DNA from: Ischnura elegans
Taxonomy: Eukaryota; Arthropoda; Insecta; Odonata; Coenagrionidae
Direction: 5' to 3'
Assembly: GCF_921293095.1 (NCBI RefSeq)
Contig: NC_060253.1
Span: forward strand, 75,243,992-75,307,991
Length of the DNA: 64,000 bases
The notes under the pieces are model-generated. The model searched no databases, was not told the DNA's origin, and saw only the letters and a list, made by a program, of their open reading frames with translations. Positions 5,236-62,350 of the stretch are shown in pieces. Every line of letters begins with the position of its first letter. Position 1 is the stretch's first letter. Both the position numbers and the translations under genes were made by a program.

Positions 5236-5410
5236 GGGTGAAGGTGGTCGTTTGGGAATAATTATCTTCGGCTATCTTTATGTTTTCGTGGGGTGGATGA
5301 AGTTGAGAATGAAAGAATTATTAACCTCTGGCCAGTAAATGTGAGTAAAGATTTTGAAATTTAGTCTTGAGGTTCTCAGTTTTAGGATGCGTGTGTATGC
5401 AAATCATTTG

Positions 5411-5583
5411 AAAAAATAATCGGGTGTTTTCCCGGCGTAGGTGTTGGATGAAAAGTTCTCGGGCTTTCCACCGGGTAATAAAATCCTTCTCCGCAGACGT
5501 TTCGATGTCCAGCAGGGGCATCGAAACGTCTGCGGAGAAGGATTTTATTACCCGGTGGAAAGAAAGCCCGAGAACTTTTCATC
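5411..5583. mobile_element. fold-back insertion 1, with 11 bp target duplication
   Basis: A long palindrome with arms at about 5444-5507 and 5519-5586 (64 and 68 bp, the right arm carrying a 4 bp insertion) around an 11 bp centre. The insertion is flanked by direct repeats CAAATCATTTG at 5400-5410 and 5584-5594. Shared words with the copies at 42.0 and 59.9 kb are TTTTCCCGGCG, TTCTCGGG, ACCGGGT and CGAAACGT. The 11 bp duplication suggests target-primed reverse transcription rather than a cut-and-paste element. Confidence 0.75.
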
Positions 5584-5590
5584 CAAATCA

Positions 5591-8500
5591 TTTGGCTGAA
5601 GCAAGCACCTTTGATTTCGTGATGTATCGGAGAGGAATTTCATGTTATGTAATGCTTGTTCGTTTAGCAAAAGAGCAGCCCTACTGTCAAACGTATACTC
5701 GATTACACGCTATATATACGTGACTCAAAATCACGAATAGCTGAATCACCTAGATTTAATACTCCTAATCGAACTTATATAAAATTATCATTGCACTCAC
5801 ACCTTTCATGATTCTGGGAGGTTTGATGAAGATTATAGCTTTTGTAAATCTCCCAGTGGAAGTTGAAGGTAGTTTGTCCCATTGCTCTTATGAAGCAGTC
5901 ATGGAAGAGACCGACAGCTTTTTCGTCCAAAGTATGGCTGAAATTCCTCGTTATCCATCTTTATATCCGCCCCTAAGATCCTCAAAGGTCCACCCATACT
6001 TCCACCGTTTTTACCATGGTTCTCAGTTCTCACTTATCTTTACTGTGCTAGGCAAGCGGCATCATTGTTTTTTAGTTGCCGTAGGTGATATTACCAAAAC
6101 GCACGGTCTTAGCGGAAATACACAAATGTTTACAAAATGACTGGGCAGTCTGAATAATATGGTAATCCTGTTCCTTGACTTAACCAACTACACCTTAAAA
6201 ATAATTCCTACGTTTATTTATGCTCGGGCATTTGTTGTGGTTATCCTGTTGCGCATAAAACTTTGTTGAACAATTATTTCTGTTGCCCATTCATGTGTTT
6301 TTGCCGTCTATATAATATGCTTTTCGCTGATTCCGAGTGACCTAACAACTTGATGCTTAATTTTGGAATTACTTAAATCTTTGTTATTGCCATGTTGTCA
6401 GCCGCCTATATTTTTGTGAATGTCTTTTCATGTCTTATTCCTCTCCACCTCGGACTGTATTAAATTTCAATTTTCAAACTTAAGAGTTCTTTCGCTCCCT
6501 GTATGTTGTCCTTCAATGTAACAATTAATAAAATAATGTTATTTGAATTTCAAACTGTACAAAATTATGGTATACCGACAACTAATCCTAGACACTGGTC
6601 ATATAAAGGTGAAGGAGAGGGGCTCGGCTAAAGAACCTGAATTCAGTGTTTATATTTTCAACTTTTTCGATACATTTCTCTCAGAAACTCTAGACCCCAT
6701 GAAAAGTCAACCCAGGAGATTCCACAGCAGTTGCCATCTAACTCTGTTCATGATTTATTGCTAAACTAACCGAAAATTTCTTCTACCATCATGCACTGTT
6801 TTTTGCTGGTTTAAGAGACTAGAAATAAAAACTCAGTACTCCTTGAAATAGATATATTTGGGGGTCTCTCTCTACTTGCCATTTAGTAACTACTCCCATG
6901 TATTATCCTGGTGTGCATTTTCCAACTCTGAACAATACCTAGTGCATATTTCATCCCAGTAAAATATTGACTTGGAATCTTTACTAAATTAGCTGATGTT
7001 TGAGTTGCAGTGAAAATAGTCTTCCAAGGCTTTATTACTTCCTTGTGCTTATCTTCATGACTGGACAGGAAAACACTCTTTAAAACAGTCAGGCTTAACA
7101 GAGGATCCAGAAAAGTTTTGAGTTGGAGGTAACTTTCCGAGAAGCACTGGAAATGTGTAATGTGATTCGGAATGAAATGAAAGGGTCTTAGGTCACTTTG
7201 TTGGCAAATTTTGTTTTTTTTTCCTTTTGCTCATTCCAAAAGTGAGGGCCTCTCTTTGGTAATATATTCAACTCATTACTAATATTATAGACACTTACTA
7301 CAATTAACTCGATCACTTATACAGCCCATCTACAAGATAACTTGAACTCCCTCGACATCTGGTTGGGAAACGAGTAGCGGATTCAGGAGGGGTCACGATC
7401 CCTCCCCAAAATTTTTATTAGTTCAATAGTTTTTGTATCCTTGTGAAGGAATACAGGTAGTGCATATGCATGCAAGTCAGTAATGTGATGGAAATTTAAG
7501 TTTTATTTATCGTAGAGCATAGTCCTCCCTGCAAAATCATTGACACAGGAGATCGCCCCTCATGGGGAGTATACGTTACTCCCCGGACCCTGGTTATCCC
7601 TATCCCCTCCCCCTCCCAAATTTGATGCCAAATCCACCCCTGGAAATAACGACATTTCATTCAACTGTGCAAATGTAGTGCCATTGGCTTCTGGAGATTC
7701 AGGACATTCTTCATTTTCCATACCCTATTTCCAATCAATAATTAACCAGAACAGCATCTGTAAAACTTAAGATGCATGTAATGATTGCAAAAGACTTAGA
7801 TTCAAGGACTTGCAAAAGATATCATCCCAAGTCATGAGAATATTAGGATTTGTCGTATGCTCCTCACCTTCATTTTACAATTTATTCTGAACATATTAAA
7901 ACCGTATTAACTTCATTAATTTGCTCTTGTTTTGAATACCCCTTTTTTCAAATTCTTGAGATGGTTCTACGAAAATTCATGGGGCATATTTCAGTCAAAT
8001 TAGGCCATCTTATTTTACTGCGTATAAAGATTTATAATCTGCTCTCAGTATACCTACTCATACAGGAAGGAGTGAGATTAACAACCTAATGTTATAATTT
8101 AACATTATATTATCATATGAACTCACCTGAGGTATTGAAGTTAAGAAACATTTATGTTCCTCATGTATGTCAATCATCGAATATACTCCACATTTTTCAT
8201 CATAGTGCACATTGTGCATTCAATATCCAAATTTCAAGAATGGTATGGTTGGCTAACAGTAATAAGGGTATTGATTTATCTTTTTCAGTAACTAAATTTC
8301 AAAATATTGTCCTGTCTTCTATGTGATATATTAGCACCATTGTCCTCGTCCTTTTTCTATTATGTGTTCCTATCCCTTACCTATGATTTATTTGTGTTTT
8401 TGCCCTTGATGTGTCATGTGAATTAATGAAGGAGTAAATTTTCATACTTAGTCATAATTTTGATCTTAGAGATTTTTCTCTATTATAGTAAATCATAAAT

Positions 8501-11332: not shown

Positions 11333-12182
11333 GTCAAGGAGGTAGAACAGAAGTAGTGGCATAACTGCAGTGGGAGGGTTTAGATCCTCCTCCTAAGCCT
11401 CAGAGAAAAAAAATGTTTAAAACGATGGCCTAGTTTTGACATAGAGCAACTGGATCTGCTTAAAGTTGAATATCATTTAATAATATAATGGCAGTGAGAC
11501 TATAGTGACTGCATACCGACCAGTGATTAACCCATGGATCCCCTGTTGCCATGGGAGTCGTCCCACGCTCCTCCAATCCACCCAAATCAGAAGAATTATG
11601 TTAGCGTAATAATATTAGCTGTCAGGAGAATTGATGGGAGGGCTGTGTTAAACCTATCTTTAGGTAACTATGAATCGATTATTAAAGAAAAACTATAAGA
11701 ACTGTAAATGATATCAAATGGCCCAGATTTTTTTCCTGTCTGAAAGATTTCAAAATTTGTGATAGTGTAGGAGTACTGTCACAGTTACTGAATATATTTT
11801 TTAGTACAAAGAAAAATCGAAAGAATACTTCAATTGGTACTTCATCTTATTTCAGCTCCATATAGTGAGTGGAGAAAAATATTTAACCGCTAATTAAGTG
11901 AAGTATGGCCTCCTTTGTAACGGGTTGCAGTTTCTTTTCAGACAGTGGATTTAGTTTTACAGTCTCCTATATATGCACACATCTTTATATTTCGCGCGTT
12001 CTTCACCGCCATTACCCTTCAATTCGCATTTTCCGCAGCATTTGTTTTATTGTTTCTACGCCATCTGCAATGTTCTGAAATTGCTGTAGTACAGGCCGCC
12101 ATAATCAAACAACTGTGATAAAACGCTTCATGTTATGTTAGTTTTCCGTATTTCTACTTCTAAATTTCTCTAAGTACGTAAA
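11333..12182. other. SRPK upstream region
   Basis: Non-coding. Around 11352 a short segment (AGTGGCATAACTGCAG and facing G/C-rich words) resembles the left end of the CAGTGGCGTAACTATG MITE found at 52905. A CpG-containing stretch at 11990-12075 may be the SRPK promoter or 5' UTR. No clear TATA box. Confidence 0.4.
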
Positions 12183-13991
12183 ATGAGCACCAAATTAGAT
12201 GCCAACCGCCGTGTACTCGCTATAAAAGCGAAGAAGAAGCGCCACAGGGGATCAAAGCGAATAGGAAAGAACGAAGAACATAGACCAGCCACATCTAGAC
12301 CTTCAAACTCGAACAGGTTGGAACCACGCCATTCATCATCTTATGAATCTGTTTCTGATGGAGAGGATTCCGAAGATTATAGTTCTGACGAAGAGGAGCA
12401 GGAAGACCCTAAAGATTATTGTAAGGGTGGATATCATCCGGTGAAAATAGGAGACTTGTTTCTTAATAGATATCATGTCCAACGGAAGTTGGGTTGGGGA
12501 CATTTTTCTACAGTATGGCTTTGTTGGGACCTCGTGGATAAAAGATATGTAGCCCTTAAAGTTGTCAAAAGTGAATCTCATTTCACCGAAACTGCATTGG
12601 ATGAAATCAAGTTACTTAAGCGTGTTAACGAAAGCGATGTTAACGATCCTAAAAGACACAAGACTGTGCAGTTACTTAACGACTTCAAGCTCAGTGGAGT
12701 CAATGGCACCCATGTGTGTATGGTTTTTGAAGTATTGGGTGAGAATTTGTTGAAGTTAATAATAAGGAGCAATTATCGTGGTATTCCCATTGAAAACGTT
12801 AAGTCCATCATTCGACAGGTGTTAGAAGGTTTAGATTATCTTCATTTCAAATGCAGGATTATTCATACTGATATTAAACCGGAGAATGTGCTTTTGTGTG
12901 TTGATGACAGCTATATTCGTAAGTTGGCTTTTGAAGCCACGGAACTGCACAGTACCGGGAACAAATTGCCAACCTCCTTAGTTAGTACTGCTCCTAAGGA
13001 AATAAGAGATCAAGGCTCAGGCGGTAAGATGTCCCGAAACAAGAAGAAGAAGCTGAAAAAGAAAGCCAAGAGGCAGAGTGAACTGCTGAAAAAGCAAATG
13101 CAGCAAATCGAAGAAGCTGAGGAGCACATCCAAGGTGATGAAAATCCTGAAGGCGGTGATCATATCCCAATGATAGATGACACAACGGAGTCGACAAACG
13201 TTGAACCTGAAGATAATAAGAAAGATGACGAAAAAGCTGGTTCCGAGACTGAACCGGAATCCTTGCAGAATGGATGTGTCAAGACCTCTCTTCCCTGTGG
13301 TGGAGATGCTCAAAGTCCCAATGACTCCACTACGGATCCCGCTCCTTCTTGCCAAAATGGTAACACTGTTGATGAGGAAAAGAGTTGCCCGTCACCTGAT
13401 AAAACGGAGAAGGTCGGTGATAGTGCAGAGCAGGGTGACAGCCTTCCCACCACCAACAAATCTCGTCCGGACCCGGCATTTGAGGTCTGCAAAATAGATG
13501 TTAAAATTGCTGACTTAGGGAATGCTTGCTATGTTGATCATCATTTTACGGAGGATATTCAAACAAGGCAGTATCGTGCGTTAGAAGTAATCTTAGGTTC
13601 CTCTTACGGCACAGCAGCAGACATTTGGAGCACTGCATGTATGGCGTTCGAGTTGGCTACGGGTGATTATTTATTCGAACCTCGTGCCGGGGATGGGTAT
13701 TCTCGTGACGATGATCATATTGCTCACATTATTGAACTTCTAGGTGATATTCCTCGTAGGATTGCGCTGTCAGGTAAGAATTCCCTTAGGTTTTTCAACA
13801 AGAAATGTGAACTTAGGTATATCGGTTTCCTTAAGTCTTGGGGATTAGTTGATGTTCTTAAGGAAAAGTATAAATGGAGTACCAAGGACGCTCGAGAATT
13901 TGCGTCATTCCTGAAGCCTATGCTTGATTACGATCCTGTACGCAGGGCTACGGCTGCTGAATGCCTCAAGCATCCGTGGCTCAAGCAATAG
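12183..13991 (+). CDS. SRPK: SR-protein-specific kinase (SRPK), intronless
   Basis: Phosphorylates Arg-Ser domains of splicing factors, controlling their nuclear import and activity. The 602-residue frame has the split kinase typical of SRPKs. Lobe 1 covers about residues 81-250: glycine loop GWGHFSTV at 104-111, catalytic lysine K126 in VALKVV, and HTDIKPEN at 228-235 with D230. A charged spacer runs from about 255 to 435 with a lysine-rich run (RNKKKKLKKKAKR) that could act in localisation. Lobe 2 begins KIADLGNACY at 441-450 (D444 is the DFG-type aspartate), then TRQYRALEV, ADIWSTACMAFELATGDYLF and the C-terminal RATAAECLKHPWL. The family normally has NACW; here the tryptophan is tyrosine. 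The whole gene is one exon while all its neighbours are split, suggesting a retrocopy that stayed intact. A possible AATAAA is at 14643-14648. Confidence 0.96.
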   Translation: MSTKLDANRRVLAIKAKKKRHRGSKRIGKNEEHRPATSRPSNSNRLEPRHSSSYESVSDGEDSEDYSSDEEEQEDPKDYCKGGYHPVKIGDLFLNRYHVQRKLGWGHFSTVWLCWDLVDKRYVALKVVKSESHFTETALDEIKLLKRVNESDVNDPKRHKTVQLLNDFKLSGVNGTHVCMVFEVLGENLLKLIIRSNYRGIPIENVKSIIRQVLEGLDYLHFKCRIIHTDIKPENVLLCVDDSYIRKLAFEATELHSTGNKLPTSLVSTAPKEIRDQGSGGKMSRNKKKKLKKKAKRQSELLKKQMQQIEEAEEHIQGDENPEGGDHIPMIDDTTESTNVEPEDNKKDDEKAGSETEPESLQNGCVKTSLPCGGDAQSPNDSTTDPAPSCQNGNTVDEEKSCPSPDKTEKVGDSAEQGDSLPTTNKSRPDPAFEVCKIDVKIADLGNACYVDHHFTEDIQTRQYRALEVILGSSYGTAADIWSTACMAFELATGDYLFEPRAGDGYSRDDDHIAHIIELLGDIPRRIALSGKNSLRFFNKKCELRYIGFLKSWGLVDVLKEKYKWSTKDAREFASFLKPMLDYDPVRRATAAECLKHPWLKQ

Positions 13992-17700: not shown

Positions 17701-20700
17701 AACCTAGATTTTGATATTATTAAATTAATTTCAAGGTTTTTTTGGACATGATCTGATGTAGAAATAAACTGCTTCTATTTTGCTTATTGTGTAAATTAAA
17801 TTGGTTGATTCGTTTAGACAATACAAGTCCTTAAACTTAAACTAACAATAAGTGTTTGGCTATTTTTTGCAGCTAGTTGGTGAACCTTATCTTATTTGGT
17901 CATGAGAACAACAGTCCGAGATGAACGTGGAGAGAAGCACTTTGATAGTCTTTTTTTGTTGCATAAACGAAACTGCACACCTGAATGCACTTTTTTTACT
18001 GTGCTTATCTTTGTGACAGCTTTTTTTATTTCTTTTATCAAGGTCTCACTTTGATCAGGCCATTCTTCTGTGGTCATAAATATGTTTTACTGATATCTCT
18101 CTGAGATAGAGTTTCACCGTTGGGTAAAATTGGTGTTGTTAGGATGGTCATGATAGGAACTAATATTACAGCTCATGATATTTCTTTTCCTTGAATCCTC
18201 AGTGTTTGGTCTTTCATCTCTTATGGTTTTACGTAAAGGCAGGATGTCCAGTGACTGAAAAAAATCTGGAATTGTGCGTGAATTTTTAGTGCCTTGAATT
18301 ATGCATGAATTATTCATGAATTTTTACTCCTACCTGGAATTTCAAAATCTTTAATTTCAAATTCATTACACACATAATTTTGCCAGTTCAACACCCGTTT
18401 TCTGGCCTAAAATGTGTTTGTCGTAATTTTAAGTGCAGTAGCTCAGTAGAGTTTTTACAGCCACATTGAAACGTGGAGTGTCAGATAAGACAACAGAATT
18501 GAAACGTCTGGCACTCTTGACTCTAGTAAAATTCAAAAACGCGAAGAATAGAATGCCAAGTGATGTCAGCATCTACATATGAGGTCAAAGCAGCAGCTTG
18601 GCTTGCATTGAATAACCATGATAAAAACACCAATGGTAATTTCCACACTATTTAATACAACACTCAACGACCGACCATGGTTTCTACACTAAGTGTCATT
18701 TTCAAGGACAAAAATGACACTAAGTGTTGAAACCATGGTTGGTCGTTGAGTGTTGTATTAAATTGTGTGGAAATTACCATTTGTGTTTTTATCATGGATA
18801 TAGCAAAATTCCACAAAATCAAGCCTGAAACGATTTTATATGCATTGAATAAATTTAAATTTCAAATACAACATGTGCTAACTAATCTATTCCTTGTAAA
18901 TACATAAATATAATATTTTTTAAAGTGTTGTTGTAATTTTGGGTGTTTTTCAATTCCTATCTATTCCAGTAATCACGTAATATTAGCCTGGAGTTTTTAA
19001 AAATATCTCTGGAAAACCAGGAATTATGGATGAATTTTTCTGCTTTGATTGGCTGGACACCCTGAAAGGGTACTTATTAATTAGCTTGCAGTAAATTGGT
19101 TGCTGCAAATAGAGGACTAGGCACTTCAGTATGTGGGGCAATGTAGGGGAAGTACTGGGAATTCCTGAATTTATATGCTGGGATACATTTAAACTTGTGA
19201 ATAGGGATTAAGAGAGAAAATGATGCCTCGGGCTAGTGTATTTTGCTGAGCCCCCATTTGAGTTACCATTTGCGTAACAATTCATATCGAGGCTTGTGTA
19301 TGGACAGAGAAATTTATTTCCTTCTTTTTAGTTGGCAAGAAAAACGTTTTTAAATTTTTTAATTTATAATATTATTTTAGTTTATATTTGTTAAAGCTGC
19401 AGATTTTAAGTTGTCTATTCAATGTAAAGGCCGTTTTGGCGGTTGTTGAATGATTCAATAAATAAATTTTTTTTTTAATATCAGGAGAATGTGGAAAAGC
19501 AATGCCACAAAATATGGGGCTACTTCACTTTACATAGCAACTTGTTGGTATTTTTTTGGTATAATTGGTAATCAGTAAGTGTACATAGCATATTGATATT
19601 CTCAAATGCTATATATCCAAAGGCAGTTAGATAGCAAGGTAAACTGATCAGTTATTTCATATTTTATTTTTATTTTATTTATTTCACACACCATCGAAAA
19701 CAGCACTGTTCGGCCTTTACATTGGGGTTGATTACATTTAATAATCACATACATCCATGCCCTGGGAAAGGACAACTTACCCTGGCGGGACTTGAACCCG
19801 CGACCTTCGGTTTGGCAGGCGAGGACTTTACCCCGCCGCCACCGAGGCCGGCAATATGATCATTATTGTTCGTCACTGTGGTGATTATGTTGCTTTTTGA
19901 GAATAACTGAGAAAGTATGGAAGAAGTGCACATATCTCTATCGGCATAGCAATTACTAAAGGTACAATATAGTTATGGACAGCTCTATTTCAGAGAAGTT
20001 TTTTTGTTGTAAATTATTAATGTTTATCATCATAATAATGTCATAGTTTTTCTATTCTAATATCAGGGTTCCCACTCAACTATGAAAACCTTAAAACCGT
20101 GAATTTCTTCTACCGTGAAAAAACCTGGAAAAAGCAGTGAATTTCGCCATGAAACCTTAAAAATATCTCAATCTTGATAATAATACTACGATTGACTGAT
20201 CAAATTCAATATGTTAATCATGCTTCATGGTCAGGCACGCGCAGACTGTTAGTCGACGCATTTCTTTACACACGAATATTCAAAGTGTAGTAATTGGTCC
20301 GTACTATATGACGACACATTGACCGATATTTTCCATTTTAATGGCGGAAGTCTGTTATTTTGTCTAAGCCTTTTAATTTTAGTGATAGCTTGGGATGGAC
20401 TTATATTCGGAAAAGGACGATTGAAATAACTAGCATTTCTAATGCACCCAGAATGAACCATTTACGAAAATTATCTGATTTGTAACTCAAAGTTCGGTTC
20501 CCACACAAAATTAGGGCACATGCCTTATGCTTCGAAATATGAGTTTGCCATTGGAATTTTCCTTAAGGAAACATTTCTACCGCTAATAGGCTTTCAATTT
20601 ATGGCAATAGCTCTCAATAGACTACGCTCACCTCGTTTGAATTTATTTGAATAATAAAGGAAAAGTGAAAATAAAGTGTTTCAGCTGATATTTATTTTGT

Positions 20701-26700: not shown

Positions 26701-29700
26701 ATATTCACTTTTTACATTGTTTCTAATGGGATACAGTGGAAGCCCCTTATAACGAGTACGGGATATAGCGACAAGCTCGAATTAGCGACAGCTACCCAAG
26801 GAACCATTTTAAACCCTATGATTTAAATGTAAAATAAATTCGTATTAGCGATAATGGCTCGATTCCTCTCTTGCGCCATTCGTAATTACGACAGGTTGAC
26901 TTTTTGACCACGTGCCACATCTCTGGAATTCAATGCTTTTAAAACGGCATTTTTTCCGCCAACGTCGACGTCTACATGTTCCGTATTCTCCTATTCTTCT
27001 TTCCTTAATAAATTTCTCGAGTACACATTTCATTGCTCTTTTGTCATCTCCCTCCCGCGCCTCCGCAGTGAGGTTAAAAATAATTCCGCCCGTCTGCTAG
27101 CACCATGGCTGGTAAACGCAAGTCCTTGGATTTAAAAACCAAAATGAGAATTATTGCAGATTGTGAAAGTGGAGAGTGTTCAAAGAGTGAAATATCGAGG
27201 CGATTTGGAATTAATACATCGACATTGTTCACTATTTTAAAGAAAAAAGAACAAATTCGTTCGGCAATGCGTAAAGAAGGGCGTCCAAGCACTCAAAAAC
27301 ACTTGCGGCCCGGAGAGCATCCGCAGCTAGAAACTGCTCTTTTCTCGTGGTTTTGCCAGCAAAGAGCCGCAGGGATTCCTATCACCGGCCCAATGATGAA
27401 GGCTAAAGCTGAGTATTTGTGTGAGAGGGTTGGTGAAGACAATTTTAAGTGCTCGGATGGATGGTTTGCACGATTTAAAAATAGGAAGGGGATATCCCTT
27501 GTCAAACTATCCGGTAAATCATCAAGTGTTGACGTTAATGCTGTGGAAGGCTGGGCTCCGGTCCTTAAAGACTATATGGACAATTACAGTCCCTGCGATA
27601 TTTACAACGCGGATGAGACGGGCATATATTTTAACCTTCTCCCGGGCTAAACTCTCGCCACTCGAACGGACCCCTGCAAAGGAGGGAAAAAAAGTAAAGA
27701 CCCCGTAACTGTTCTTTTATTCGCCAATATGGATGGTTCAGATAAGTTAAAACCGTTCGTGGTGGGGAAATCCGCCCATCCCCAATGTTTTAAGGGAGTT
27801 AAAACTCTCCCTTGCACTTACGAAGCAAATAAAAATGCTTGGATGACGGCTGCTATCTTCACGCAGTGGTTACGAGCGTTTGATGCCAGGATTGGTGGAA
27901 GGAATAAAAAAGTACTATTATTTACTATTATTCATTGACAATTGCCCAGCCCACCCACTAATAGAACTAAGAAACGTTAAAATTGTGTTATTGCCGCCTA
28001 ACACTACGAGCGTTCTTCAGTTCCAGTCAGCATTCCTATCAAAAAGTGTGCGCTACTGCCGCTAGAGGTCTCTACGTCCGCTGATATTGCGTCTGATTGC
28101 GTGAATCTCTACGAAACATAAATTTTGCTAACAGACAGACAAAGAGTGGACTTCATTTGTCCTTCTATTTATTTGAAGCAGTTTTTCACCCTTTCCACCG
28201 AAGATAATTGATATGACTAATATGCTTTTAGATGCCGTAATGCTGTTCGGTTTCATGATTCCGATAGCATTTGAGTCGGCTGTTTTGAAACACGATAGTA
28301 AACCATTCATACAGGCAGACTTGAAGCATAAGAAGATTACTTCCACCTTCATTCCGCCGTTAACCTGAAAAAGATAGAATTGCAATGCCCATGTGGAACC
28401 GTAAATTTTTTTTTATCACGCTCCTTTCGTCACCCAATTGCAGCAGCCACCCATCATTTTCATTACTATTTGGAAAGATAGAAGGTATGAATTTTTGAAC
28501 AGATTCCGAAGTTTTAGCATTTAATAGTCTTATGCATAGCCATAGCCAACTGGTAGTTATGACATGTATATTTGGAGCATCTAAGAAATAAGGATAATAA
28601 CAGCTCATAATGCACAGTTCAGTACGAGTGAGTCTGAAGCTGGGACTTTTAAAATCGACTTCTTAATGCCTCGGCATATAGCATCCTGCATAATTACATA
28701 TGATTTGATCATAGATTGCAAGTGAATATGAACATTAGTGAATTAAATGTTCAAAATAATGATTTAAAACGGCTATCATGCTGCAATTTTCGCCTCTCGG
28801 CAGAAACAGCCGTGGTGACGCCTGATGAGTGATTTTTTTGTGACGATGTAATTGCATTCGGTAACAACGACAACTCACTATAGCGACAGATTTCTCTGTT
28901 CCCAACAGCTGTCGTTATAAGGGGCTTCCACTGTATTATGTCTCGATTAACGTCATTTTGCTTATCGTCACATTTTTCAGGAACGGTAAGTGACGTTAAA
29001 CGAGGACTCACTGTATTTTGAAAGGAAGTAAAATTTTAGACTCATATTTCATAACTTTTAATTATTTAGTTTGGTTTACCACTTTGCAAAAGTTAGGCCT
29101 GATATTATTATTTTTCTTAATTTTTTTCTCATCACTTATATCTGCCATGCCCAGATGACTCATTTTGACCCAGACTATCATATCCATTTGAAACCTTTCT
29201 ACTTTCCCTTTGTATTCAATATAACGGTGTTATTTATACTGATTTTTTGTCAAAATGTTATTGAATATTTTTTAAAACCTGATGCCATTGAGATTCATTG
29301 TACCTCCCAAACCCATCAGATGAAAAGTGATAGGTATGTATTCTCAAATTTGTGGAAGCTAGTTTCCCGTAACACCATAGAAATTGTTGAACAACTACAA
29401 TTTTAATATTTTTAGTCTAATTAAATTTTCTACTACCCTCCCAAATGATTTATAAACAATATTTTGAATGAAGCTGGGAAGGAATTGAATATTTTGAGTG
29501 AAATATGCAGACATGGTCATATTGGGTCAAATTGACCCATTTGGGTATAATAGGATGTAAGGATTGGTCGGGCATGCTAGTGGTAAGAAGGGTCTTGCAG
29601 ATAATCACGCACTCTCAGCACCAACCTTTTTTTGACCCTTCTTGGCAGGGACTCTGTATTATCGTGGACTCCAAGGATAGTTGGGCTCCCTCCCTCCTTT

Positions 29701-41726: not shown

Positions 41727-44700
41727 AAGTACACAAGCCTCTTCTATTCTACCACTCACTGGGAACCTTCATTTTCTGATTCTTCATATTCTGATACGGT
41801 AGATTTTTTGCATTCAAAGGGGCGATTCTTTCAAAAAAAATCTATCAACCCCGCCAGAGATAGAGCAAGAAGCCTAAGGCATTCCTCTCTCATTGTATCA
41901 CCTCAATGAATATCATATGTGTGGATTCCACAGGCCACTGAAAGGCACACAAGCTGTTTCTTCATGTCCAAACTGCATTTGAGTAACCACGACAACCCAT
42001 GGAGAACAAGCACTCTTCAGATAGATTTCGTGCTTTCCCGGCGAATGGACTTGGTAAAGAGTTCTCGGGATCACCACCGGGTCAGGAACTCCATATCTGC
42101 CAACGTTTCGATGACCGAGTCGGACATCGAAACGTTGGCAGATATGGAGTTCCTGACCCGGTGGCGATCCCGAGAACTCTTTACCAAGCACTCTTCATCT
42201 TGAGCCTTATGTTAAGTCTATCAAAGTATAACTATTTATTTAATTTCAATTGTGTAAGAGGTTAAAAAATTAAGAGACCTGTAATTTCCACTGGCCTACT
42301 CCATCGCTTACTTCTTAAGCCATCAACAGTGAAAAATCATAGCCTTAATAGATAAGTTGACAATGTCATGAAGTCCTGCGGAGCATGTCACCACATCTCA
42401 ATAGCTCCTCAGCCTTGCGCATATATCTGGTTTCTTTTTTATTTAAATTTAGTAAGCCATTCCTTACCCTAATGGGCAGTTCTCCCGGTACATGAAATCT
42501 AAATGCACCACCAAAATCAAGAGAAGTGGCTGGCAACTTCTTTTCATTTTAAACATTGTGAGGGAATGACTGAATGAGGAAGATATTTTTTTATGTAACC
42601 TACCCTTCCCTTTACTTAAGTCCTAATAATATCACTTAACAGCAGATGGTGAATTTAAACCGTGAATGATGGTGAATCAGTTTCAACTTTCTTCAACAAC
42701 AGTTTACCCCAGCATCCACCAGGGGAGGATTTACCATAGAATTTGGGAGAGATCATCTGGGCCTGGGGAGTATGGAATACACCTAAGAAAAGAGGCGCGT
42801 TTTTACGGTACGGAGTGCTACACTCTACGATAAATACAACTCACACCTATTTCACGTCTGGGACTTGTAGCCAATACATTAACATATACACTCACTTTAC
42901 TCCTGTTTAAGTATACAAAAACTACTGAATTATTAAAAATTCAAAATTTTTGATAAAATATAGGGGATGTCACGACTCGGGTGGTTAAACCCTCCAATTG
43001 CAGAGCTGTCAGCTTTGCGTATCATTACAGACCACAATTCTAATTTTTTATACCATAAGATGCCATTGCATTGTATGTGTGTATAATCAGTTTAAATAAA
43101 ACTTTGCATGTGACTTGATTATTTTTTTACGACAAAAGTAAAGGTATTAGTATCGGAGGCTTTCGGGAGCAGCTGCTTTTGCGCTTTGTTAAGTGAGCTT
43201 TCGCCGCCACTGCATTATGCATCATGAAGCAATAAATGCATCATTCATTCTACAAAAGTGTACGTTTCAAGAAAGTAAAGGTAGCCTAAGATATCTTTTG
43301 TGCCCCCCTTGAGTTTTTTCTGTGTCTGTCACTGACTACAGCATTTTTCTTAGCTTAGGTTACAAATATAAATTATATGAGTCTATGTTATTTAGTATTA
43401 AAGTTATCACTGCTTGTCTCTAAGAGAGGTCTTTCATGTGGGACAGGCCAGCAGAAGTTTTAAAGATGTAGAAAATTGAGCTTATGACCTAATTTATTGT
43501 TGCAAACCTTGGTATGTATTTAACCCTTAAGAGTGCGGGAACATTTTTATACGTTTTGCAAGCTCACTGTGACATTTACCCAAAATCTTCATTACCGGCT
43601 GAATATCTTGCACTTGGGCACTTTCCCTCACCCTAAGGATAGATAAGGGGCTTTATTCTACCAGAACAGCCCTCATGGCAGGGGGTCTCTTCTGGACTAG
43701 CTGGCAGTTAAAAGCGCGAACTCCCACAGCCCAAGGGTTAAATCAGTCATGACACCAATCAAAGTGCTCCAGAATGAAAAAAAATCAGAGGTCCTTGAAG
43801 CAGAAACAGATAAAGCATCCCATGCAAACATATGCTTGCATAAAATATTTTTATGCAAAGGCATGAAGCTAGGAGTTTAATAGGCAAGTCTTTGAGTGTA
43901 AAGACATGAGGCTTGCAATGTGACTTCTCAGTCTCCCAGCTCAAAAGGCACATGATCCTAAATATAAAGGTTCACCCACAGCCTAGAATATTCGGGGATG
44001 GTCGGGTTTTATCGAATGCTTAATTATCCACCGATCTTCACCAAATTTAGGATTTATGACTTATTTAACATTATAAACAATCTTAGCCATGGAATAAAGC
44101 GCTAGCACAACTATTTAAATATGATAAATACGGTACATATCTTGATTAGGAAGTGGCTACTTTTACGAGGAGGCAGCCATCTTTTTTGACAGAAGACGAT
44201 CGAAAACAAATGATATTAATTAGTAATGGCAGGGAAATTTCGATATTTTAATCTGCAGTTAACAAGGTAACAGGCCTGTGGAGTGAAACAGGGGTGCTGG
44301 GGTGGGACGGTACTCAGGCGGGATATGGGCAATTATGAGGGGAAATCTTTCGGTCCAGGGCACTCCTATGAAAAGACATTTTGGAAACCAGTGATAAAAC
44401 GATTCCCCGTTCCTTTTAGTACAACCCGTCCTACCCAACCCGCCCGGGCAATCCTCCGTTTGGGCACTCATGCGAAAAAACATTATTTTTATCCATCTCA
44501 AATCTCCATTGTTCAAACTCCAAATAATGTTTGAAAAGCCTCTTCTTTGTTTATGATCGTCTTTTGTCAAACAAGATGACTGCCTCCTCGTAAAAGGGTC
44601 ATTCCATGCCAAATCATCACAGCTCCCAACCCGACCGTCTCAGATTTGCTTGAAATTTGGTAGGAAGTTGAAGCACATGAAACTGTGCTCATACACAAAA

Positions 44701-57304: not shown

Positions 57305-57832
57305 CCATCATGCGTCAAAATTTTAAAGCGCGCGAAACGCGACGGCTAAGCAGGAATGCTGGGAAAAGTCCGAGTGACGTGTTTCTGGTTCCAGCTGTCG
57401 CCTTGTGAGGTGACCTTGGGGCGAGGCTTTGAGCGCTGATACGACGCAGGCTGCTAGCAGGTAGCGCTTGGCTTAAATAAGGATTATTATTACCCTATTA
57501 AACGAAGGAAACTTTCCAAACTTAGGTAATTTTAATGGGAGATTAATAAGAGATGTTTCCCTGAGCTCTGTGCCTCATGCATGCATTGGTAATCTCAGAC
57601 AATGTAAAACTCCTATCTACTCGTATAGAAACTAGGTCCCTGTGACGTCACGTGGAGTGGAATCGCATGGGCACCAATCTGGCCTTTTTCAAATGGGGTT
57701 AAAATTGACCATTGCCATTCGTCTAAACTGTGATTTCTAAAACCAAATAATTTGTGTATTATGTATACACTAATGGTGGGTAACGAATCGCAATCAATGC
57801 CTTTCGTTATCTTTGATGAAGGAAACTACCCC
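57305..57832. mobile_element. AGGGTRGTTTCC MITE, second inverted copy (left end lost)
   Basis: Shares GCGCGCGAAA, TATTTAAGCCAAGC (complement), CCATGCATGCATTGG-type words and the right end GATGAAGGAAACTACCC with the other copies. Its left terminus is not recognisable. Confidence 0.65.
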
Positions 57833-57879
57833 ATTCTTATTTTCTGGGTAGTCCCCACGAATATTATTATGACTGCTAC

Positions 57880-57982
57880 GGGATTTCTAAAACCAAATAA
57901 TTTGTGTATTATGAATACACTAATGGTGGGTAAGGAATCGCAATCGATGCATTTCGTTTTCTTTGATGAAGGAAACTACCCT
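57880..57982. repeat. duplicated right end of the AGGGTRGTTTCC MITE
   Basis: About 100 bp (GGATTTCTAAAACCAAATAA ... GAAGGAAACTACC) repeats the terminus of the copy ending at 57832. Together they form a short tandem that creates an artificial 120-codon open frame. Confidence 0.7.
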
Positions 57983-58106
57983 ATACTGGATGAATTTTCC
58001 AGCATACCCCCTGATATGCTGGTAACAGCTATGGCAAACGCCAAAAAATGGTTTAATCATTCTCTGGAGAATGGGGGAGGTCACCTACGTCACCCACGGG
58101 CGAGAA

Positions 58107-58738
58107 TAGGGTAGTTTCCTTCATCAAAGAAAACGAAAGGCATTGATTGCGATTCGTAACCCACCATCAGTGTATTCATAATATACAAATTATTTGGTTT
58201 TAGAAATCCCAGTTTAGATGAATGACAATGGTCAATTTTATCCTCATTTGAAAAAGGCCAGATTGGCGCCTATGCGATGCCACTCCACGTGACGTCACAG
58301 GGACCTAGTTTCTATACGAGTAGATACGAATTTTACATCGTCTGAGATTACCAATGCATGCATGGGGCACAGAGCTCAGGGAAACGTCTCTTAATAATCA
58401 CCTATTAAAACTGCCTATGGTCGGAAAGTTTCCTGCGTTTGATAAGGTAATAATAACCCTTATTTAAGCCAAGCGCTACCTGCTAGCATCCTGCGTCGTA
58501 TCAGCGCTCAAAGCCTCGCCCCAAGGTCACCTCACTTGCGGCAGCGGGAACCAGAACGACGTCACACGGTGTTTTCCCAGCATTCATACTTTTTTTTTCG
58601 CGCGCTTGAAATTTTTCACTTTTCATTTAATCGCGAAAAATAGATATCGTCATTTAAAAATGTAAGAGCGTGAAATACGTACTCCAGGAGAAATAATCTT
58701 TCGATTTAGGCAATAAAAAATAATAGGAAACCACCCTA
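58107..58738. mobile_element. AGGGTRGTTTCC MITE, full-length copy
   Basis: Starts TAGGGTAGTTTCCTTCATC and ends GGAAACCACCCTA; 632 bp and AT-rich with a GC-rich middle. Best reference copy for the family. The flanks do not show a convincing duplication beyond TA-rich bases. Confidence 0.82.
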
Positions 58739-59050: not shown

Positions 59051-59874
59051 GGCACGGAATGTATTTTATTTTCGCATTCAGTGCGAGCGGACCTCTTCGA
59101 CTCCAATCCACGAAATCAATATTTTCATAGATTTGAATTTTTTATATTTCAGACAACGAAAGAATTTGATATTCTAATCAATGTGATAGGTACCCTGAAA
59201 TTTTCTGCATGATTGCTTGAGATTCAACCAAGCAATGCGTCAAAATATGATCGTTTGAGGGGGGGTTATGCGACCTCATAATAGATTCCAAGAGGAAATT
59301 GTCTGCTTCCGCTCTGGTTTCCACAATACGACCATGGTTAGTCACCTGTTTTAAGGCCGGAAACCACGTATGAAAACGCGAAAGAGGGGGAAAGTTTGGC
59401 AGTCAAAACAACCTGAACGTGCTAGCTGGAAGGCTAGCGGCATGTTTTAATCGTGAAACTCGAACGTGAAATGAACTCCGGAAAATATATTTTCATAGCC
59501 TAAGCCTGAAAAGTAAGAAATTCACGAGTCGCTATTATTTTAAAATGCTTAGTAATGCCATAGGTAACTTATTGATAAATCATGCTGGGTGAGGATCTTG
59601 GTTCAAATCTCGCAGATTGATGTAGGACCCTCTTTTGGCTTTTGCGGCGTGGATAAAAAGGGTAAAGAATATAACTAATTTAAACGTATTTTTATTTTAA
59701 TTATTTTGATTCCGCTTTTTCAGTTCACCAATCTCTTTCCATATATCACAATGCGTACGAGCGATTGTGGATTTTATGCTATTACTTCCTCTGCAGGAAA
59801 TAGGATTTCCAATGAAAATAGAAAAATTACCTTTTCTGCGAAATGACCTTATGAAAGTGATATAAGATTTTAGA

Positions 59875-60090
59875 TTTTCCCGGCGTATCAAGTGCAAACA
59901 GGATTCTCGGGTAATAATCAACCGGGTAATTGGCTTCATGTCTCCCGACGTTTAGAAGAATGACTTGCTCTACATTCTCAGGCGATCTTTTGAATGATGA
60001 ATTAGAAGATAACCGAAGAGCAAGTCGTTCTTCGACACGTTGGGAGACATGGAGCCAATTAACAGGTCGAAAAACCGAGAATCCTTTCCG
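59875..60090. mobile_element. fold-back insertion 4 (old, diverged)
   Basis: TTTTCCCGGCGTATC opens it, as in copies 1 and 3. Arms at about 59911-59972 and 60022-60086 mirror each other with mismatches (GGATTCTCGGG ... ATGTCTCCCGACG against CGTTGGGAGACATGG ... CCGAGAATCC). A target duplication was not found. Confidence 0.6.
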
Positions 60091-61030: not shown

Positions 61031-62230
61031 TCCAATTTCAATTTGATTCATTTCCTCTAAAAAAATTTATGAGGTATTTGATTTATCTTATTAAATAATT
61101 CGACAGTAATTATTAAATTATAATTTTTAGACAATAAATAATAAATAAATTAATAAAACTCCTTAATAGCGCAAAAATGCGAGGTGTAATTTCAACTACC
61201 GCATCTCAAAAGAATGGGTTACGGATGTACGAGTTTCATAGTTTAGTGGTGGGGGAAGGGAGGGAAAAAGCGAGGAAGGACCGGGGAAGGAGGGGAAGGC
61301 AAACTGATCTTTGCCCCCCAGACAAAATTCTTAGTTCCGGTCCTGATTGAAACCAATATCATTTTACTTTGATCGATTTGAAAATAATACCAGTTCGCGT
61401 TACAATGGTAGTGTTTCACCAATATCCATCCGCTGCCTACTGATTTCGACGCATTCGTGCCTTTGCGAGGGACTAAGAATCATTAGGGAGGCCTTACAGG
61501 CCTCTGAGACCCGCGAAGTGGATTAAGAATTGGTGGTTTCGGATGGGGAAGGGAGTTGAAGGATAAATGAGGTCACGTATTTGGTTGGAGAAAAAATCGG
61601 CTACACAAACTACAGGGATCAATGGTAAACATTCATAATCGATTAAGTCATATAGTAATAGTAAGTAATAGTACGATATCTGATGAGCGACTTCGTAAAA
61701 AATTTTTTTTTGTTGAAAAATGGTATTTAAACCTTTTTTAAGGGTATAGTCTTTTATGAAAATTTTCCTAGTTTCCACATATATGCCAAATCATAATTTT
61801 TCTCAGTTCTTGAGGCCATTTTTCTTGTCTGGATGTTTCACCTTTTTACAAATACCTGCGGTATTAGGGTTATCAATATTTACTAAATGATTACTAGTTA
61901 TATGTTAGTTAGATTCTTCTCGCTACTTTGATTCTAAGAGTGAAAAAACAAATTACTAACGATTACGTAACTATAAAATAAATTATTGAAAGCAGCTGTA
62001 TGAAAATGATGTATAAATTCGTAAGCCTAGTGCATCACTAATGTAGCGTAGAAATGACAGTTTGTGTCAATTATTGGATTGTTCGAAGAATTTCGTTAAT
62101 TTTTATATAAAATTAATATTGAAAGTGAAATCGATGAGCAATGAACCGAATCCCACATTAAATTATTTTGAATTATATAACAATTTCGCAAGGCTATGAA
62201 TTAAAATTATTATGAAAAATATTCAGCGTA

Positions 62231-62350
62231 TCATCATCTGGCCAGATGATGATACGCATCATCTGGCCAGATGATGATACCTACGCTGTATCGAAACCGG
62301 TCGCAAATATATTTTATTTTGTGGAACAGCGAAGTCTTTTTCTTAACTTT
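62231..62350 (+). repeat. second retrozyme-like sequence
   Basis: Contains CTGGCCAGATGATGATAC twice in tandem, then GCTGTATCGAAACCGGTCGC and ATATTTTATTTTGTGGAACAG, matching the insertion at 39669-39817. Its left part is mirrored (GTATCATCATC before CTGGCCAG). Target duplication unclear (ATGAAA near both sides). Confidence 0.65.

Follow-up and report, generated by a model that had tools for sequence, protein, structure and literature searches.

Palindromic insertions in Ischnura elegans made of the 3' end of a Penelope-like element, and a two-ended target-primed reading of their formation

Palindromic insertions and other features of the window

The window analyzed here, a 64,000-nucleotide stretch of the Ischnura elegans genome, contains copies of a short palindromic insertion at 5.4, 42.0 and 59.9 kb (Table 1). 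A preliminary description of this DNA had reported a palindrome with an 11-bp duplication at 5400-5594 and a class of such insertions shared across the window. The first report was correct: the insertion at 5411-5583 is flanked by an exact 11-bp target-site duplication (TSD), CAAATCATTTG. The class is also present at all three positions, the 59.9-kb copy being old and decayed, with no convincing TSD (the best common word has 5 bases). The 42.0-kb copy has the same anatomy as the 5.4-kb copy.

Comparison of the window with itself gave an inverted repeat at 5444-5586 (90% over 147 aligned columns, E = 4e-50). The palindrome had been described as self-complementary, and this holds for the arms, whose pairing starts at 5444 and runs inward, and not for 5411-5443, which has no partner (or for 5411-5446, when the 3 bases that overlap the duplication are included). 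The arms are joined via the common bases CATC, and compared to the left arm the right one carries an insertion of 4 bases. On the minus strand, 5521-5411 is an ATG-started open frame of exactly 37 codons, MPLLDIETSAEKDFITRWKARELFIQHLRRENTRLFF. In the coordinates of the open reading frame (ORF) to which it belongs, the two ends of the insertion are 33-36 nt apart.

Table 1. Parts of the three insertions in the window (PLE, Penelope-like element; nt, nucleotide of the PLE ORF)
Feature	Position	Strand	Remarks
5.4-kb copy, left TSD	5400-5410		Exact sequence match
5.4-kb copy, tail, at this end only	5411-5446	-	Antisense PLE ORF, from nt 111 (end 1, borders the duplication) to about nt 76; "tail" as in PMC11167929
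5.4-kb copy, tail bases	5444-5446	-	Match the right-end duplication as well
5.4-kb copy, left arm	5447-5522	-	Antisense PLE pseudo-LTR; N-terminus related to that in PLE loci
5.4-kb copy, common bases of the arms	5519-5522		CATC
5.4-kb copy, right arm	5519-5583	+	PLE sense, without tail; ends near nt 75-78 (end 2)
5.4-kb copy, right TSD	5584-5594		First three bases, CAA, also match the continuation of the arm
42.0-kb copy	42007-42197		Family F1; 13-bp TSD, 42007-42019 and 42185-42197
42.0-kb copy, tail	~42020-42049		
42.0-kb copy, left arm	~42050-42113		
42.0-kb copy, right arm	~42109-42184		Contains the loop, in sense orientation (type A)
59.9-kb copy	59864-60089		Old and decayed
59.9-kb copy, left arm	59864-59953		
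59.9-kb copy, right-arm remnant	60027-60089		

Matches to TTTTCCCGGCG with at most one mismatch occur four times in the window, compared to 0.45 expected, and none of 100 shuffles reached four. Three of the four lie inside the copies; comparison of the fourth, at 33.06 kb, with 50 copies shows nothing. There were no Rfam matches in the window at gathering thresholds. Allowing E up to 10, the palindrome matched mainly microRNA hairpins, all below gathering scores, and these were discounted because any perfect hairpin gives such matches.

The window has several other features. A different, longer palindrome at 18612-18801 (190 bp, ~89% self-complementary) matches none of 50 PLE copies compared and is probably another type of element. 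An inverted repeat at 57314-58619 (~520 bp, 89% identical, ~270 bp spacing) has an ORF nearby and did not match either of the two PLE proteins used for comparison. There is a short nested palindrome of CATCATCTGGCCAGATGATG units at 62226-62280. An unbroken 605-aa ORF with a protein kinase domain, resembling SRPK kinases, is located at 12174-13991 and is possibly a retrocopy or a single-exon gene. A transposase fragment of the pogo/Tigger type, with HTH_Tnp_Tc5 and CENP-B_N domains, is located at 27084-27650.

Origin of the insertions in the 3' end of a Penelope-like element

Penelope elements are described as a third class of eukaryotic retroelements. The fixed words shared by the copies fall within the first 37 codons of a PLE ORF: they are codons of TRW, (S/A/T)RE and RRE, together with GAAACGT following a covarying stem. 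The N-terminus MSEVLIETLASKSLTRCLTREDFIHSIRRE is present in loci retrieved with a PLE protein. In locus L072, a 341-aa ORF goes from MSEVLIETLASKSLTRCLTREDFIHSIRRE into FEKLRKERSVLL..., the opening sequence of two 764-aa ORFs, in L073 and L085, that are cut by the edge of the locus. In L075 and L084, the N-terminus is found past the stop codon of a PLE ORF, or next to such an ORF, and then gives way to other DNA, as would be expected of a 3' terminus. None of the fetched ORFs contained the N-terminus, reverse transcriptase (RT) and endonuclease together.

The RT domain (RVT_1) was detected in all four ORFs of related loci (E = 1.1e-14 to 3.4e-14) and in L030 (E = 6.4e-9). It was not found in the shorter pieces L037 and L022, the latter having no Pfam match of any kind. 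The best PDB matches were bacterial-type RTs (E = 3.6e-7), with telomerase found only at E = 0.08. The C-terminus of L085 carries GVYHIPCECGLAYVGETSRTVEARIKEH, with the motif GVY...YVGETSR...RIKEH. Pfam GIY-YIG was below cut-off in L037 (E = 0.0071) and L079 (E = 0.024), and was unlisted at E up to 0.1 in the other three of the four ORFs with RVT_1. PLE matches spaced exactly 2,527 bp apart were found on contig C1 at 37190405, 37192932 and 37195459 (minus strand) and at 37199488 and 37202015 (plus strand). From these coordinates, C1:37190405-37202818 looks like tandem head-to-head PLE arrays, with three minus copies facing two plus copies. PLEs have a pseudo-LTR (pLTR) that overlaps the ORF start and an optional tail of 30-40 bp, features present here as the 37-codon start and the ends 33-36 nt apart. 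On this evidence, the insertion is identified as the 3' end of a PLE, made of a pLTR and a tail that both overlap the ORF start.

Five PLE matches had identical scores (C1:49636, C4:136378917, C7:118213878, C11:71542 and C19:123544596), two of them less than 75 kb from the contig start. They are perhaps a common segment, possibly subtelomeric.

Differences among ten family representatives numbered 361, 367 and 421 at the three codon positions. Since the excess at the third position is only slight, conservation of the words appears to act on the RNA as well as on the protein, and we make no claim of a purely coding constraint. The stem at the start codon, which follows CTGANGA (CTAAAGA in family F7), had 89.3% of cells paired over eight families, with changes on both sides in five of its seven pairs. 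Its covariation was 0.541, compared to 0.201 for shuffled sequences and at most 0.189 for slid partners. The surrounding core, CTGANGA ... GAAACGTY, was found in 10 of the 12 copies tried, and in F1, by hand count, the last base of the GTC is 26 nt into the ORF. One paper has reportedly described a hammerhead in Penelope elements. A search of six loci for Rfam hammerheads, with E up to 10, gave no match, and hammerhead activity is therefore only presumed here.

These positions resemble those of PAc, a Poseidon element of Anolis carolinensis (PMC11167929). The PAc ORF starts at stem II of the hammerhead, with part of the core just before the ORF; the cut site is 26 bp into the ORF, like the end of GTC in F1; and the commonest start of reverse transcription is 111-118 bp into the ORF, a range that includes the outer end (nt 111) of the window copy. 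Two adjacent internal start sites bound the tail of PAc, much as the two end positions do in the window copy. The agreement in these numbers may be partly chance. The PAc data are from in vitro reactions, and the sections of that paper considered here (PMC11167929) do not discuss head-to-head palindromic insertions or their junctions.

Ends, arms and junctions across the genome

We found 1,848 matches (933 + 915) to the conserved-word pattern TTTCCCGGCG-N(8-30)-TTCTCGGG-N(4-20)-ACCGGGT in the 1.72-Gb genome, and 0 and 0 with control patterns. The earlier observation that the words are shared and the sequence between them differs was confirmed: there are many families with different fillers among the 100 matches listed of these 1,848. 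The first 50 of the 100, all on C1, served as a positional sample, with 1.5 kb (L009-L038) or ~350 bases (L089-L108) read downstream. A copy was scored as palindromic if it had its own right arm scoring at least 28 and ending at index 26 or less, index 0 being the first T of TTTCCC. By this measure 34 of the 50 copies were palindromic, including L025, which qualified solely via a weak 22-base right arm and has no TSD; 28 of the 34 had a TSD of 10-15 bases. Two others (L011 and L031) had an inverted right arm ending elsewhere, at index 44 and 40. The remaining 14 had no right arm in the stretch read, and some may have one beyond it, as in L092, whose left arm runs into sense RT-coding sequence.

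Combining the positional sample with two similarity-ranked sets, and dropping L004 and L061, which lack the exact anchor word, gave 70 palindromes. L058 and L064 represent a single insertion that lies in a duplicated segment, so 69 of the 70 are independent. TSDs varied in length, with 8-16 bases in 63 of the 70 (one mismatch allowed) and an AT content of 0.69. There are two preferred ends. The right arms terminate between index 9 and 24 (mode 17; the upper limit of 26 was part of the definition of a palindrome), and the left ends of the 63 copies with a TSD are at -10 to -20 (mode -16). A tail of 33-36 bp is found at one end. The anchor word required it at the left end of the 70, and although no lower limit was imposed on the right arm, none of the 70 was two-tailed. 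A two-tailed pattern at hairpin spacing occurs at one place genome-wide, compared to 66 one-tailed hairpin-junction palindromes (37 + 29) in family F1 alone. With a query containing the arm only, 36 of the best 40 places had the tail (hand comparison). The copies are thus asymmetric, with a tail at one end and not at the other.

Either arm can be the longer one. We scored 30 of the 34 positional palindromes with a threshold of 10 bases and one reference copy per family (uninverted, except for F2, F3 and F6, where it was the left arm of a palindromic copy), and found nine left-longer, seven right-longer and 14 even. L025, L097, L103 and L108 were left out, having no anchored right arm or being their own reference. 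On visual inspection, L012, which was scored as left-longer, seems to belong with the right-longer copies, and L036, which was scored as right-longer, is ambiguous. An automatic tally (10 left, nine right and 12 even of 31) was contaminated by short chance matches and was dropped in favor of the anchored version. The right arm of L037, and only that arm, has ~0.9 kb of sense PLE sequence including the ORF. The 5.4-kb copy was scored left-longer, and its relatives L002, L003 and L005 right-longer.

Hairpin loops occur in both orientations. In F1, 37 are oriented as the right arm (sense) and 29, a count that includes both L058 and L064, as the left arm (antisense), a ratio close to equality (p = 0.39). 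No sense-type loops were found in uninverted copies. A degenerate loop pattern had 235 matches in all, leaving ~169 elsewhere, mostly in uninverted copies. In the positional sample, most junctions between arms differ from one another. Twenty-nine of the 30 fetched copies of the 42-kb subfamily, which were ranked by similarity to a query carrying that junction, have one hairpin junction in common; their loops are in both orientations (16 and 13 of 29, two of the 13 being one duplicated insertion).

The arms did not cluster by side, the comparison suggested in the preliminary description. In F1 (n = 37), the mean score deficit was 2.79 between left arms, where selection by exact words lowered the value, and 6.09 between right arms, for an average of 4.44; between left and right arms it was 4.46 for different copies and 4.05 within a copy. 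Pairing each arm with its own partner in F1 (n = 39) beat 19,999 of 20,000 permutations. There was no such advantage in F2 (n = 9), F3 (n = 6), F4 (n = 5) or F6 (n = 4), which have little variation or few copies. Among young copies (n = 29), three deviations were mirrored on both arms, compared to 0.17 in permutations. Arms share the source variant of their own copy. There was no clear cross-family chimera among the 70 palindromes; L038 and L089 are each matched about equally well by two sister families. The varied junctions and the lack of grouping by side bear out the earlier proposal of rebuilding: palindromes were made many times.

Of the 58 palindromes whose TSD is exact and 8 bases or longer, 16 have filler at the right junction and 42 do not. 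In 34 of these 42, the arm and the duplication overlap by 1-5 bases (mean 1.76 over the 42), compared to a calculated ~0.33 bases for blunt random joining (34/42 versus 25%, p ~ 4e-14). The microhomology previously pointed out at CAA in the 5.4-kb copy is real, and is one case of the 34. This overlap fits priming with slight pairing or end-joining alike, and does not decide between models.

At the arm junctions of L012, L017 and L098, 18 to 32 bases were not assigned to the element, as if filler had been added at fusion.

Formation of the palindromes

The explanation that we favor, with a probability of about 0.7, is that a short PLE insertion consists of the 3' end only, present twice head-to-head as a result of two-ended priming. 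In this model, the endonuclease of the element would cut both target strands with a stagger of 8-16 bases, and each cut 3' end would prime reverse transcription from its own site within the element RNA. One of these sites would be near ORF nt 111, and the second near nt 75-78, ~33-36 nt upstream of the first. Two short cDNAs would result and would then be joined head-to-head, in many cases by annealing via the start-codon hairpin (stem II of the presumed hammerhead) and in the rest with homology slight or absent. The TSD would arise when the staggered ends are repaired. Such a reaction would produce two ends, a single tail and staggered cuts, with either arm the longer and the loop in either orientation. 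Because the start-codon stem is a self-complementary point of annealing, it would account for the frequent junction and for loops found both ways round. The kind of element is known; for the mechanism, we infer that the right end was primed rather than joined and that two cDNAs were made.

A published PLE protein cleaves and extends both target strands in vitro, with no apparent difference in start site between them (PMC11167929). The genomic copies have the tail at one end only, so the model needs an added rule. In a further reading, to which we give even odds, two-ended target-primed insertion is obligatory and the default for PLEs: the distal site (giving the tail) would always be used on one strand and the proximal site always on the other. 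Several findings speak against two-ended priming: the right arms of L011 and L031 (2 of 50) end elsewhere; the microhomology at 34 of 42 right junctions could reflect end-joining; the single junction in 29 of 30 copies of the 42-kb subfamily is as amplification of a ready-made palindrome would give; and no clear two-family chimera was found in 70, though the use of two RNAs might give some.

The preliminary description gave snap-back copying during target-primed reverse transcription as one way in which the palindrome could be rebuilt. Target priming is still the best fit for the insertion, and snap-back is not supported as the general mechanism. In a snap-back, a single-primed cDNA bearing the tail, or an antisense RNA as for rotifer Penelope, would fold and copy back. 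A natural hairpin is located at the frequent F1 junction, and nine of the 30 scored copies, together with the 5.4-kb copy, have the longer left arm that snap-back predicts, with 14 of the 30 even; the 5.4-kb copy taken alone could have arisen in this way. However, if one arm were copied from its partner, the right could not outreach the left, and it does so in seven of the 30. Loops should also lie in one orientation, yet 37 of 66 F1 loops are oriented as the right arm, an orientation absent from uninverted copies, and the tail should have been copied and is found on 0 of 70 right arms. An inversion between the arms at a later time could reverse the loop, but genome-wide the turned loops are about as frequent as the rest, and they also occur among near-identical copies. 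Taken together, snap-back is improbable as an explanation of these insertions. We also consider it unlikely that the palindrome is a ready-made, inherited non-autonomous element amplified by PLE enzymes, like a hairpin SINE. The many near-identical copies of the 42-kb subfamily with one hairpin junction, ranked as they were by similarity to that copy, are what this would produce, and amplification of this kind may contribute in that subfamily. Yet loops in both orientations (16 and 13 of 29) occur within the subfamily, an uninverted copy (L101) has the same diagnostic bases, junctions in the sample mostly differ, arms are not grouped by side, and each copy would have required an RNA whose start is close to end 2. 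A DNA transposon of the foldback or MITE type, bounded by terminal inverted repeats, would likewise be palindromic and flanked by a duplication. That reading is refuted by the asymmetry of the termini (0 of 70 right arms reach the tail) and by the PLE coding content, the sequence being the N-terminal part of a PLE ORF; the TSD also has no fixed length (8-16 bases in 63 of 70).

Two-ended priming can be compared to further known systems. In LINE-1 twin priming, reverse transcription starts from the nicks in both target strands, and one part of the product comes to lie inverted between one pair of TSDs. There the segments are different parts of one RNA, whereas here the same 3' region would be copied twice from two defined sites. 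Penelope elements of bdelloid rotifers, such as Pen2a_Av, also resemble these insertions: they have an inverted pLTR, shorter than the direct one, a pLTR overlapping the ORF start, a 31-bp tail on one inverted pLTR, a 9-bp TSD, and palindromes at inverted junctions (PMC3846280). The rotifer elements are low-copy, and from the palindromes self-priming on an antisense template was inferred (PMC3846280); the copies here are high-copy, often without the ORF, and their junctions disfavor self-priming.

If two-ended insertion is the default, the head-to-head repeats, tails and palindromes of Penelope would be the regular outcome of a single reaction, and self-priming accidents would not be needed to explain them. 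The two preferred ends, the one-tail rule and the junctions with either side longer constrain the PLE insertion reaction, the later steps of which are described as yet to be validated (PMC11167929). This collection of natural insertions argues against the published self-priming reading and provides a direct bench test. The titles and abstracts that we searched contained no proposal of two-ended priming for Penelope; what is new here is the two-ended reading and the genomic tests.

Two further loci, L105 and L106 (C1:54288385-54289560), lie ~1 kb apart on opposite strands and have the tail, the arm and flanking DNA in common. One possibility is an inverted duplication that took in target DNA, which is what a true snap-back would produce.
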